In this document: piece after piece, positions 352 to 6,223 of the stretch
Numbering within the stretch: the first letter of the stretch is position 1
Layout of the letters: every line of letters starts with the position of its first letter
Assembly (NCBI RefSeq): GCF_020520425.1
Contig: NC_079492.1
Coordinates: forward strand, 146,475,861-146,539,860
Reading direction: 5' to 3'
DNA: 64,000 bases
DNA from: Spinacia oleracea
Taxonomy: Eukaryota > Streptophyta > Magnoliopsida > Caryophyllales > Amaranthaceae
Position numbers and translations under genes: made by a program
The notes under the pieces: model-generated
Database searches by the model: none
The model's input: only the letters and a program-made list of their open reading frames with translations
What the model was told of the DNA's origin: nothing

Positions 352-361
352 TCACAAACAG
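352..361. repeat. Target site duplication of the MULE, left copy
   Basis: TCACAAACAG here is repeated exactly at 6214-6223, immediately outside the right TIR. Confidence 0.9.
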
Positions 362-500
362 GAGTAAATAGGTCTGAAGGTCCCTAAACTTTGCCAAAAG
401 GAGCAGTTAGGTCCCTCAAGTTTCAAAAGGAGCATTTAGGTCCCTCAAAATGGATGGAAAACCGCTGCTTTTTGTTTTCCGTCACTAACGGCCGTTAAAA
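362..500 (+). repeat. MULE left terminal inverted repeat
   Basis: Inverted partner of 6077-6213. It presumably carries the transposase binding site. The promoter for the transposase lies inside or just after it. Confidence 0.92.
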
Positions 501-854
501 TGAATATAATAATATAAAAAATTATTAAAATAAAAGGAGAATTAATATACACGTAGATTAATGATTGAAAACAGATGATTTTGATGAAAATAAGCCTTTT
601 CCAATTACTTAGCCTTTTCAACTTACTTTTTCAATGTGTACACGTGGAAACCTTCCAACTTCCCTCGTATTTTCTGGTTCCTTCCTAATAATGTTTTGGC
701 GGTAATTTTTTTACTGTTCCCAACCCTATTTCCCCCCTTTTCACTTCCTATTTATATGGTCCCCCCCCATTTTCACTCTCAGTTGTCTTTTTGCCATTTA
801 CTCACTCAAACACTTAAGAGAATTTGAAGTTATTGCTCTGAGTTTTCTGCAAAA

Positions 855-1773
855 ATGGGTTCTTGCGTATCAGGAAAGAGGACTGCTGATAAGTGGGAAT
901 GTCGCACCCCCAAGAGAACAAGAATTTCCAGATGGGACGAAGGTATTTTCATTCAATTTGTCGGTTTTTTCAATAAATGTTTGCAGTTGAGCCATGATAA
1001 ATTAGGGTTTTTTTGTTAAGTAACTTTTTCCCAAAATTGGTGCATGCATTATCTTGATTGTGGTTTTTTATATGTTAATTTAAACAATCGTGGGCTGATT
1101 TCGCATAATTTATCAATTGAAGTTGGAATTAGGGTTTCGTCCGTTTTTACTTTCCAATATTTAATTCGAATTGATGCTTGCATGTTCTTGAAAATGGTGT
1201 TTAATATGTTAAATTATACAATTGTTGCCTAATTTGGAATTAATTTAAACTAGATTTTGTAGTAATTAGGGTTTCACTTACTGTTTTTGATTCACTTAAA
1301 TAAAAAACAGAGTTTGATTAATTCGAATTGATGCTTGCATGTTCTTGAAAATGGTGTTTATTTAAACTATTGTTTAATTTGGAAGTATTTTAATCTAGAT
1401 TCCGTATAATAATTAGGGTTTACTTACTGTTTTATTGACTTTGGCCGTTACTTTGACTTTAGGAAACCTTGCTTTAAGGGAGGCACACCCCCTTTGTCAT
1501 CATCAAGACATCCTCATCACCCAAATCTTCACCAAGCTGGACTGGGAGGGGCAGGCTGCTGTGCAGATGGTGTGCAAGCAGTGGCGTAGGTGGGCCAAGT
1601 TGCGGTACCGCCTCCCATACCACTACCCTCAAGGATGCTACCGCGCGTGGCTGCGGGAGTGGGTGATCATGGACATCATTGACAATGATGGCCGTGACTT
1701 CCACGCCTGGATGGACAAGGACATGACCGTCTACTTTGACGGCTTCCCCCTCCTTTTCAAGGAGGAGGAGTAG
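855..1773 (+). CDS. Alternative product of the MULE first exon: F-box-like protein, 132 aa
   Basis: Inside the first transposase intron an acceptor (TTTAG at 1458-1462) opens a 311-nt exon, 1463-1773. Joined to exon 1 (855-942) it keeps frame and gives a 132-residue protein. The new part reads HHQDILITQIFTKLDW, then VQMVCKQWRRWAKL, which fits the F-box pattern of a leucine-rich start, an IF..L core and VCK.WR. It ends at a stop after an acidic tail. This exon is clearly more GC-rich and codon-like than the surrounding intron. It could be a captured host F-box fragment, a real second product that recruits an SCF ubiquitin ligase, or the 3' end of an unrelated gene. Frame compatibility alone has roughly a one in three chance, so transcript evidence is needed. 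Confidence 0.55.
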
Positions 1774-4700
1774 CTGGTGGTGGAGGCCATGCAGGGGTGG
1801 TGGTGGCGCTGGTGGTGGTCCCTCTTTTGTCAAGCTTATGATGATCCAGCTTGTTTATAGCTTTTTTAATTTTTAATTTTCAAGGACAATTACATTACTC
1901 TGTCATTGCAATTAGGTTTTTGTGAATGTGACAAATGTTGGTTTTTGGTATTTGTCACTGCTATGACAGTAGTTTATATCTAACCGTAGGCTTCTCCCTC
2001 AATAGTGGATTGAGGTTTGAAATGTTAGGGTTAAAGCCTACCCTTTTGTAAATGAATTCTGATTATGATGGATGGATGAATGAATGAATGCAATTTAACC
2101 TTTTGTTATCTCTTGTGTTGTTATTCAAGATTTGGTTTGGTTTGATTTCTTAAAGTTTTGTTTTTTTAATTGATATTGTTTAACTTGATCAGATGATGTT
2201 GATGATTTGACTTTGAACCCTTGCATATATGTGCATCATGGTGGTGAATGGGTTGTGCAAGGTGATATGGTTTATAGTGGGGGGAGGGTGGATGTCTTTG
2301 ATTACATCCATGAGAATGCAGATGACAAATATGTTAAGGAATTAGTCGATAGTTTAGGTTATAATGATATAGAGAAAGTACATTTCTGGGACCCTAGGAA
2401 AGAATTCAAGAATGGGGTTAGGTTTTTAGGTTTTGATAGTAGTACTTGTGACCCTTTCTTAGCTTTACTCTTTGAATACAAAAGCATTCATATATACATT
2501 GAACATAAAATCAAACCCACCTACAACTTTAACCTAAACAGGAGTGAAGGAGGGGGAGGAGGGAGAGGTAGCTTCCTTGAGTTGTTGAATACTGATGTGG
2601 TTGACTTAAATTCTGATTATGTGGAACCACCTTTTACAGTACTCCCACCCAAACAAACTGAAACTCAACCTGAACCTCAACCTGAACCTCAAATTCAACC
2701 TCAAAATGTGCCTCAACCTGAAATTGATTATGATTCAGAGGGTACAGATGAAGATGATGATGAGTTAGACACTGCTAGATCTAAGATATCTGATGATATG
2801 AGAAGGGAAAAGGCTTATTTTGAGGAGTTAGTAATGCTGAAAAAACAAGCAGAAAGTAAAGTAGAAGGTGGTCTGAATTTGGGGGATGACTTTGATGGAT
2901 ACAGTGACTTAGACAGCCCTAGTGAGTCAGAAGATGAGGATGATGTTGGTTACTTAGTTGCACCACAACACCATAAGAGGGGGAGAGGGAAACAGAAGCA
3001 AAACAACACTGAAACTGAAGAGAGGGAATCCACTTTTTATGTTGGGCAACAGTTTGAGAATCCAAAGACATTTAGGAAAGCAATCATAGATTATTCAATT
3101 GATAAAGGAAGAAACATTCCATTTTCTAAAAATGATTCCACTAGAATTTGTGCAGAGTGTGAGCACAAAGATAAAGGTTGTAAATGGAGAATTTGGGCTT
3201 CATGGGAGAGAGGAAGAAGGTCATTTACAGTGAAAACATTTGTCAGTGAGCACACTTGTGGTAGGACACCTATCATTAAGAAGATGACTTCACATTGGAT
3301 TGCAGAACACTGCCAGAATCTGTTTAAGGTTAACCCTTACATGAGAGTGCAAGATATTCAGGAAACCATTTGGTTAGAAAAGGGTATAAGGGTGAGCAAA
3401 GACAAGGCTGTCAGGGCTAGGAGAAGGGGTCAAGCACTCATTGTTGGTGAATACAAAGAGCAGTATGCATTACTCCCAAGGTATGCAGCTGAGATACTAA
3501 GAAGCAATCCAGGGAACACAGTGAAGTTGAAGTTGGATGCAAATGTGTTTGACAGACTGTATTTGTGTTTTGAGGCACTTAGGAAAGGGTTCTTGGCAGG
3601 ATGCAGACCTTTCATATCACTTGATGGATGTTTCTTAAAGGGACCATTTGGGGGTCAATTGTTAGTAGCAGTAGGGAGGGATGGAAACAATCAAATGTTC
3701 CCTTTGGCTTGGGCTGTTTGTGAGGTTGAGAGCACTGACACATGGAGTTGGTTTCTAGAACTTCTAGCTACTGATTTAGGCACTAGTGAAGGAGCAGGGT
3801 ACACTTCCATGTCTGACCAACAAAAGGGTTTACTTGCTGCTGTGTCAAATGTGTTTCCACAAGCTGAAAGTAGGGTGTGTGCAAGGCATGTGTACTGTAA
3901 CTTTAGGGGAGTGTTTGGAGGTGGTTTAGAGTACAGAAAACAATTTTGGACTATTGCAAAAAGCAACACAGTAAATCACTTCAATGAAAACATTGAAGTA
4001 ATGAGGGGTATTTCACATGAAGCTGCTGAAGACCTACTGAAAAGGAACTACAAGAAATGGTGTAGGGCATTCTACACTCCATTATCTTGTTGTGACAGTG
4101 TAGACAACAACATGAGTGAGGTGTTTAATGCATACATCTTGAGTGCAAGGCACAAGCCTATTATTACCATGTTGGAAGATATCAGAGAGGGTTTGATGGA
4201 AAGACTGCATAAGAAAAGAGATTTCATTGGGAAAAAGGAGATAATGTTGTGTCATAGGATCCAAATTCAGTTAGAGAAACACAAAATTTGGGCTAGGGGT
4301 TGGAATGCATACTGGGATGGTGGGTTTTGCTATGGAGTAAGAGAAGGTGCAACACAGGTTGAGTATGTGGTGGATCTGAACCAACATACTTGCAGTTGCA
4401 ATGCATGGCAGGTGAGTGGGATTCCATGCAAACATGCAATTGTTGCTATATGGAATAAAGTAGACCACCCAGAACAATATGTCAATGCATATTTCTGCAA
4501 ACAGACCTACATGAAGGCATATGAATTTTTGTTAGAGCCTTTAAATGGTCCTCAAGAGTGGCCTACTTCTGATAGCATTGTTGTGGCTCCAAAGGTGAAA
4601 AAGGTCAATGGAAGACCTAAAACAAAGAGGAGATATGGTGTTGGAGAGGTAACTGCATCTGGTAAGCTGAAGAGAACAGGTTGTTCTATGAAATGCAGCT

Positions 4701-5188
4701 TATGTGGTGTGATAGGCCACAACAAAAGGGGTTGCAAGAATGCCCCTAAGCAACAACAACACAGCAACAATCATGCTACTGCAGAGCAGACCACACTACA
4801 GCAACAACACCCAAGAACCAGTTCAACTATACCAATGCACAATAGGGGTGTGGGTATTTATACCTACCCAAATGGGTATCAAAGAATAGCTACTGTAAGT
4901 CATTCAATATACTCAAATTCTTTCTTACATGTTACTTTACTGTACTGAAGCCAACTTGTTCCTAATTTGTTTTAATTAATGCAGCCTATATCACAACACT
5001 TCCCCACACCACAGAGGCAAAGACCTCCTGCAGCTTTCTATTCTGATCATGGGGGTGAGCAAACCATCTACTCCTTCCCTGCACATGACTTCCCATTGTC
5101 ACAGACTCAACCAAGTCAAGGACACACAATATCAAGCCAAGCATTGCAGGATCTTGCAATGGCTAGAAGATTAGAAAAAAGACCATGA
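855..5188 (+). CDS. MuDR-type MULE transposase, three exons, 997 aa
   Basis: Inferred exons are 855-942, 2193-4894 and 4985-5188; both introns are GT-AG and keep frame. Exon 1 begins MGSCVSGKRTADKWEC and ends in a basic run before RWDE. Without exon 1 the main frame has no ATG upstream of its conserved start, which is why I place the start at 855. Domains in order: an N-terminal PB1-like MuDR domain (about residues 36-115); an acidic, Gln/Pro-rich linker; a FAR1/WRKY-GCM1-like zinc DNA-binding domain (about 310-380); the MULE RNase-H-like core, with Asp near 507 in SLDGCFLKG and near 571 in SDQQKGL; a SWIM zinc finger (CSCNAW then CKHA, about 763-777); and a CCHC knuckle near 864. This is the full architecture of plant MuDR transposases. 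It would bind the TIRs and cut and join DNA in the nucleus. The splice model is my inference; the domains are visible directly. Confidence 0.9.
1159..1431. repeat. Imperfect direct duplication inside the MULE intron
   Basis: About 1159-1291 and 1317-1431 share AATTCGAATTGATGCTTGC and then TAGGGTTT..ACTTACTG in the same order, with small gaps. It lies between transposase exon 1 and the F-box-like exon. Confidence 0.75.
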
Positions 5189-5252
5189 GGTTAGATTTTA
5201 TTGAATTTAAAGTCTTCATTACATTTCATTAGTGCAGATCATTACATTTTAC

Positions 5253-5699
5253 CTACCCACTTAACCCACTTAACTTAAAATAAACCAGATAAAAAAAAAA
5301 CAGAACCACTAGGATTACAACCCACACTTCACATTTCACACTAATAGGTCTTCTCATCTTGCTCATCACATAGTCTGCCTCCCTCTTCCTTGCATAATTG
5401 TTAGCTTCACTAAGTTTTGTCCTAAAACTATCAACTTCAGCAGCAAGGCTTTGTTTATCTTGCATTAACCCTAGTATGACAATTGTTTGCCAAGTTGTTG
5501 GTTCTTGTTCATCAATCCATCTAAAAAAGATGCAACCCCTTCTGTTTGTTTCAACATCATAATCTGGACAAGCAATGAACCTCCTTCCAGGATTTTCTTT
5601 TGTCCATGTCTTTTGAATGGATACTGTGAATCCACAGTAGCACCTCTTAGGGTGTTCATTATCACCATTGTTGAACAAAGAGATAGCCCTGTTCATCAT
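5253..5699 (-). CDS. GRF-type zinc-finger protein with C-terminal membrane segment, MULE second gene
   Basis: A 148-residue frame that converges on the transposase gene, its stop 65 bp from the transposase stop. Residues about 19-65 form a GRF zinc finger: RCYCG, then NPGRRFIACP, then RRGCIFFRWIDE, with the usual Cys spacing and aromatic FF.W. A predicted short coiled coil (about 75-110) follows, then one hydrophobic membrane-spanning stretch (about 124-142). Plant genomes hold many small proteins of this build, of unknown function, often inside transposons. Its place and direction recall mudrB of maize MuDR, but I see no similarity to MURB. The start is the Met pair at 5694-5699, just after a likely acceptor (TTTGCAG), so a 5'-untranslated intron is probable. 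Confidence 0.8.
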   Translation of the reverse strand: MMNRAISLFNNGDNEHPKRCYCGFTVSIQKTWTKENPGRRFIACPDYDVETNRRGCIFFRWIDEQEPTTWQTIVILGLMQDKQSLAAEVDSFRTKLSEANNYARKREADYVMSKMRRPISVKCEVWVVILVVLFFFYLVYFKLSGLSG

Positions 5700-6076
5700 T
5701 CTGCAAATAAATTACGTTTTAATAATTATTTCCTAAATATGTTAATTATTGTTAAAATAAGCTAACTTAAGATTTTTAAAAAAATGGCAGAAAAATACCT
5801 TTTTGTTGAGAAGAGTCAGCTATGGTGGAGCAACAGAGAAAAAACACAGAGCAGAAGATGGAGAAGAAAGAATTTTTTTTTTTTAAGTGTTTTATTGTTG
5901 TTTTGTTTGCCATGGAATGTTAAATACTCTGTTTTTTGAGAGCCTCAACGGCTATATTTTTGTAAAAAGCTAACTGAAATGAATTTCCCTTTATTTAATT
6001 ATTGGTAAATGGTAAATGTAACTGTTTTTTTGTCGTTTAGTGCCTTTTATTTAGTTTCCTTTTAATTTAATTGAAT

Positions 6077-6213
6077 TTTAACGGCCGTTAGTGACGGAAA
6101 ACAAAAAGCAGCGTTTTCCATCCATTTTGAGGGACCTAAATGCTCCTTTTGAAACTTGAGGGACCTAACTGCTCCTTTTGGCAAAGTTTAGGGACCTCCA
6201 GGCCTATTTACTC
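6077..6213 (-). repeat. MULE right terminal inverted repeat
   Basis: Inverted partner of 362-500. The GRF zinc-finger gene reads inward from this side. Confidence 0.92.
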
Positions 6214-6223
6214 TCACAAACAG
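6214..6223. repeat. Target site duplication of the MULE, right copy
   Basis: Exact copy of TCACAAACAG at 352-361. It fixes the element's right boundary at 6213. Confidence 0.9.

Follow-up and report, generated by a model that had tools for sequence, protein, structure and literature searches.

An F-box-like exon inside the transposase gene of a spinach MULE: candidate alternative products of a single first exon

The window, a 64,000-nucleotide stretch of Spinacia oleracea DNA, contains a complete MULE that spans 362-6213 and is flanked by a perfect 10-bp target-site duplication (TCACAAACAG at 352..361 and its exact match at 6214..6223, neither being assigned a strand). The terminal inverted repeats are about 140 bp long, lie at 362..501 on the + strand and 6075..6213 on the - strand, and pair with 98% identity when one is inverted. 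Coding begins on the + strand with an exon of 88 nt (855..942, MGSCVSGKRTADKWECRTPKRTRISRWDE), which ends in phase 1, the next bases being GTATTT. Two introns can be drawn from this donor. The shorter (943..1462, GT...TTTGACTTTAG) is 28% GC and leads to an F-box-like coding exon at 1463..1773, which closes with the stop TAG at 1771-1773 and shows a frame-specific deficit of amino-acid changes; a conserved GC-rich stretch, with low mismatch among divergent copies, follows at 1774..1860. The longer (943..2192, GT...GATCAG) leads to transposase exon 2 at 2193..4894, where Pfam recognizes a MuDR DNA-binding domain, a MULE domain and a SWIM zinc finger (PF03108, 1.2e-15; PF10551, 7.1e-16; PF04434, 3.6e-10; all above cut-off), and an in-frame GT-AG join over 4895-4984 connects this exon to exon 3 and its stop (4985..5188). 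Convergent with these, on the - strand, is a gene for a GRF zinc ribbon protein with a hydrophobic C-terminus (5256..5711; PF06839, E 1.4e-7).

The transposase frame of the window copy appears intact in sequence. Its MuDR DNA-binding, MULE DDE and SWIM domains are all present, the TIRs are long (~140 bp) and the 10-bp target duplication lies in the 9-11 bp range, all of which place the element among autonomous-type MULEs. The element does not fit the Pack-MULE class, as a transposase is present and no host parent was seen in its own genome. The GRF zinc-ribbon gene is a third conserved gene of the MULE, and it has at least 150 genome matches at E<=1e-10 (150 of 384 candidates scored). Three GRF genes elsewhere lie on the same strand about 2.4 kb apart (G000:C4:117771166, 117773543 and 117775900); they are open, 74-78% identical to the gene of the element, and possibly a tandem amplification outside the transposon.

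An earlier note on this DNA had claimed that exon 1 ends one base into a codon and can be joined in frame, with GT-AG borders, to either of two acceptors, and the recomputed arithmetic agrees. Splicing to 1463 (acceptor CTTTAG/G) gives a 132-aa F-box-like protein, and splicing to 2193 (acceptor GATCAG/A) gives a 997-aa transposase once the intron 4895-4984 is removed. A shared 29-aa leader gives both predicted proteins the same basic segment. In young copies and some older ones exon 1 starts with MGSCVS or MGSCSS, and in others with MDASSS, MVASSS or MAGASS; the MGSCVS leader presumably resembles an acylation signal (N-myristoylation/palmitoylation). A cassette exon that would fuse the F-box-like and transposase parts into one protein is disfavoured. 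Every GT of the F-box exon in phase with the transposase was scored as a donor, and all three scored poorly (-6.9, -1.2 and -3.2) next to the two accepted donors (4.5 and 1.3 on the same crude scale). Because the in-phase GTs fall so far below the accepted donors, the two products are probably mutually exclusive, and the F-box-like protein and the transposase are most likely alternative products. The proposal that two in-frame products derive from a single first exon is supported to this extent by the sequence. Openness of the F-box-like frame is, by itself, weak evidence, because GC rises from 28% to 56% on entering the exon and the same stretch also contains an open antisense frame of 126 aa. 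What raises the F-box-like frame above chance is that the frame, its splice sites and its place are conserved across subfamilies.

Searching the 894-Mb genome of Spinacia oleracea gives an idea of how widespread this arrangement is. A 1353-base stretch of the element has 48 matches with 92-100% DNA identity, the window copy included (40 scored of 125 candidates). The F-box-like frame has 125 genome matches, of which 116 are at E 1.1e-5 or better and run from 100% down to 48% identity in several subfamilies. The remaining nine, at E 0.1 or weaker, come from the own-genome protein search of this frame, which revealed no host parent set apart from the rest. Setting aside these nine and another nine that are fragments of counted copies leaves 107 F-box places, and for 97 of them a transposase start follows downstream at no more than 15 kb, among the matches listed. 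For the transposase, 130 places were drawn from at least 152 matches, further fragments of a copy not being counted again, and starts more than 50% identical to that of the window were called related, those with 50% identity or less distant. The expectation that related MULEs carry the same intronic frame holds within the spinach genome: among the matches listed, the F-box frame is found on the same strand, no more than 2.5 kb upstream, at 91 of 110 related starts. For the other 19, also among the matches listed, nine have an F-box frame within 15 kb, as if split off by later insertions, and ten have none. None of the 20 distant starts has the frame, among the matches listed, and eight distant MULEs that were read directly have no match to exon 1 or the F-box exon better than E 0.10. 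In these eight loci, by eye, the transposase frame opens with its own ATG before a PCIVVHHGG-like segment that corresponds to exon 2 here. Because the distant loci that were read show no such match to either exon and begin with their own ATG at the exon 2 segment, exon 1 and the F-box-like exon seem to have been added in one MULE group. Many copies in the spinach genome are young, and several have both the transposase and F-box frames open.

The splice sites are conserved as well. The AG of the F-box acceptor is kept in 23 of 24 correctly oriented copies (L028 left out), and that of the transposase acceptor in 14 of the 16 copies examined. Exon 1 was detected by sequence in two main-group copies and in 10 of 20 divergent copies that were fetched; in the other ten it was not detected by sequence and, on that evidence, is lost or too diverged. 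In all 12 copies with a detectable exon 1, the donor GT and the F-box acceptor are intact, and the full exon 1-F-box frame (132-136 aa) is open in eight of them. The four exceptions are L048, which has no start, L049 and L050, which are broken, and L056, which is frame-shifted near its end. Stops are present in the F-box-like frame of many old copies. Conservation extends past the F-box stop, with 14 divergent copies mismatching at 5-13% in 1783-1862 versus 30-37% in 1863-1922. From 1783 on, subfamilies differ less in this stretch than in most of the transposase start. Judged by its sequence, 1774-1860 is probably a 3' UTR or a remnant of acquired sequence. By eye, another frame in 1774-1860 is Gly-rich, open in several old copies and broken in the window copy; it may be a C-terminus that was lost, or a signal in the RNA.

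Selection on the F-box-like frame can be assessed from dN/dS between copies, a check that the earlier note had suggested. Among nine open copies the values are mostly indicative of purifying selection, at 0.15-0.50 in 29 of 36 pairs, with extremes of 0.08 and 1.09; a single pair stands at 1.09 and two pairs at about 0.73. The copies in these selection tests were chosen for open frames, the pairs share copies, and old copies have been decaying for some time. Because GC-rich, methylated sequence mutates unevenly, a context-matched null was used, in which the observed changes were re-dealt over sites with the same base and CG/CHG context. With a null counting stops, all 15 pairs have fewer amino-acid-changing codons than the null mean, 13 of them at P<0.05. 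Since openness had been the basis for choosing the copies, the test was repeated with a stop-free null, and 11 of the 15 pairs reached P<0.05 and nine P<0.01; L014-L039, L014-L057, L014-L042 and L040-L044 (4/15) were not significant. In a control, all six frames were scored with the null that includes stops: all nine pairs show the deficit in frame +0 (P no higher than 0.033), three of the nine show one at P<0.05 in frame -1, and no pair does so in the remaining four frames. The antisense 126-aa frame was rejected as the conserved one, its deficit being inconsistent across pairs. In the three divergent pairs whose two frames are both comparable, with stops skipped, dN/dS is 0.41, 0.27 and 0.45 for the F-box versus 0.26, 0.25 and 0.43 for the transposase start. 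Across the whole of this analysis the pairs used were L001-L055, L055-L044, L055-L046 and L046-L044; stops were skipped in the L044 transposase and the L046 F-box, and transposase values of pairs with L014, which is frame-shifted there, were left out. Taken together, these comparisons show purifying selection on the predicted intronic frame. Relatives that lack the frame, or in which it evolves neutrally, were said in the earlier note to speak against its reading; the divergent subfamilies of this genome do not fit that description, although old single copies have decayed.

Comparison of the window copy with L055 reveals a mosaic. Their difference amounts to 15% in exon 1 and about 9% in the first two thirds of the F-box exon, as against 0.6-2.3% in the first part of the intron and 0.7-1.0% at the transposase start. 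Divergence at synonymous sites is 0.25 for the F-box exon versus 0.034 for the transposase start, and dN/dS of the F-box exon for this pair is 0.15. In the window copy, 855-942 and the intron end (2001-2192) differ strongly from both L055 and L014, with other parts almost identical, and the F-box exon (1463-1670) differs strongly from L055. These sequences are most simply read as an exchange of F-box cassettes between lineages with near-identical backbones, in which both F-box versions stayed constrained while diverging, the patchwork pointing to recombination between subfamilies.

Care must be taken with the F-box assignment. The window protein scores 14.6-15.2 bits against the Pfam F-box-like family, below the cut-off of 24.3. 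At E<=1, seven of 12 members match F-box-like and four match F-box, and an F-box match is absent in five of the 12. When nine members are seen singly, L044 alone passes PF00646 (21.0 bits vs a cut-off of 20.5); the window protein, L014 and L055 have F-box matches below cut-off, and L039, L040, L041, L042 and L057 have no F-box match in Pfam. Matches to Pcf11_C in four of the 12 members (best E 0.078) are weak and were taken as chance. The F-box matches begin at profile positions 8-11, past the LP pair that contacts SKP1 within the LPxx(I/L) core, and at that register the pair is missing in 17 of 17 copies. An ungapped match to the Skp2 F-box falls in one register in four copies (L001, L055, L041 and L044), with 0, 0, 15 and 4 of 500 shuffles, respectively, being as good. 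Known F-boxes themselves share little sequence similarity: with the Skp2 F-box as query, other solved F-boxes come up at E 0.17-1.5 only. Searching PDB sequences with a single copy or a profile returned weak, unrelated matches only. AlphaFold predicts helices at a mean pLDDT of 49-50, too low to use, and a structure-based assignment was dropped, with pLDDT about 50 in both models. The label 'F-box-like' given in the earlier note stands, with L044 above cut-off in its favour and the five unmatched members and the missing LP pair against it. The role as an SCF adaptor proposed along with it does not follow, because the LP pair is missing in all 17 copies, the Pfam matches start after it, and altering the first motif residue of the viral F-box-like protein p22 abolished SKP1 binding (PMC6784205, in the part of the text available); SCF binding is doubtful on this sequence.

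Several other explanations can be weighed against these results. The protein could be a real F-box protein, an SCF adaptor directed at a silencing factor, in the way that polerovirus P0 targets AGO1, or at the transposase. Plant viruses do use F-box-like silencing suppressors (PMC6593998 and PMC6784205, as far as their available text goes), and the L044 score and the single-register Skp2 match would fit. We consider this explanation unlikely, given the missing LP core, the effect of the equivalent change in p22 (PMC6784205, same part), the five of 12 members without an F-box match at E<=1 and the low-confidence predicted structure. Alternatively, the exon could be an inert captured host fragment, a Pack-MULE-like passenger that is open and spliceable by accident, which the earlier note had called the plainer alternative. 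The jump in GC at the exon is as in captured gene pieces, the antisense frame is open too, and host fragments are known from MULEs (PMC6446971, available portion), but frame-specific purifying selection, conserved splice sites, the constant place upstream of related transposase starts (91/110, among the matches listed) and an own-genome protein search without a separate host parent make it improbable. An old capture may nonetheless be how the F-box-like exon originated. A poison exon, in which use of 1463 truncates the transposase message and limits transposition while the peptide is irrelevant, could account for the stop inside the exon, for the lack of a good in-phase donor onward to the transposase and for the high conservation of nucleotides near and beyond that stop; it has no need of selection on amino acids in one frame, and we give it little chance. 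A main product that includes the F-box-like exon, with translation of the transposase beginning internally, is very improbable, since exon 2 here has no Met in the transposase frame before the PCIVVHHGG-like segment and both the exon 1 donor and the distal acceptor are kept, although the distant MULEs (8 loci, by eye) do begin their transposase with an ATG just before that segment.

The explanation that we consider likely is that this MULE family makes an F-box-like accessory protein as well as its transposase by alternative splicing of one pre-mRNA. One promoter and one first exon would serve two mutually exclusive proteins, with exon 1 spliced to 1463 for the 132-aa accessory protein and to 2193 for the transposase. 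Both splices would occur, and the short message would end in or after 1774-1860. The short protein would be a helper or regulator that benefits the element, most likely using its F-box-like helices for protein-protein contacts that affect host silencing or the level of transposase. The cassette probably entered as captured host sequence in the ancestor of the group and would have been kept since. The anatomy, the conserved predicted frames and splice sites, and the confinement to a single group of related MULEs, of those examined here, can be read directly from the genome comparisons; a regulatory or anti-silencing role for the short protein we infer by analogy. A helper or regulator is favoured because alternative splicing in Spm and the MULE helpers VANC and Ulp1-bearing KIU provide precedents. 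A more ambitious proposal, that the transposon-encoded F-box-like protein inactivates part of the host silencing machinery or adjusts the transposase, as a counterpart of viral suppressors, with its cassettes exchanged between near-identical elements, is speculative and rather unlikely to hold in full.

In maize Spm/En, ORFs sit inside an intron of another product. The spinach element is similar to this CACTA system (tnpA-tnpD) in that one transcription unit would give several proteins by alternative splicing. It differs in belonging to another superfamily with unrelated proteins, and in that the Spm transcripts have been shown whereas the spinach MULE is read from genomic DNA alone. The available part of PMC1636069 describes several proteins produced from Spm by alternative splicing, of which two are required for transposition, and TNPA as acting on how the element's own promoter is methylated. 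Like Arabidopsis VANDAL/Hiun and KIU, the spinach element is a plant MULE carrying an extra accessory gene. Ulp1, like F-box, belongs to ubiquitin-type pathways. The available portions of PMC6446971 and PMC13317346 describe VANDAL/Hiun (VANC anti-silencing) and Kaonashi (KIU, Ulp1-bearing) as MULEs with an extra accessory gene, possibly host-derived. These are described as separate genes, whereas the spinach one is, by description, an alternative exon that shares the transposase start; a further difference is the long TIRs of the spinach MULE. The pairing of a transposase with a convergent second gene is shared with MuDR (mudrA/mudrB) and with Abermu of barley, for which the accessible text of PMC9168764 gives three ORFs (ORF1, ORF2 and the reverse ORFR), two in sense; the word F-box occurs 0 times in that paper. 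Polerovirus P0 and crinivirus p22 are likewise F-box-like proteins of plant genomic parasites, but their binding to SKP1 depends on an LPxx(I/L)-type motif (PMC6784205, available part), and the spinach copies are without the LP.

Among the titles and abstract openings listed from the open-access literature searched, none describes an F-box exon in a MULE. The same is true of the available parts of three papers in which F-box does feature (PMC12595863, PMC12062965 and PMC13359793), one of which presents the reverse case of F-box genes that captured a transposase domain (PMC12062965, in those parts). If the explanation preferred here is true, an F-box-like accessory protein made from inside the transposase gene would join the few known helper genes of plant MULEs, namely mudrB, VANB/VANC, the Ulp1 of KIU and ORF2/ORFR of Abermu. 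With many young copies in the spinach genome, several of them open in both frames, the balance between helper and transposase would be directly testable.
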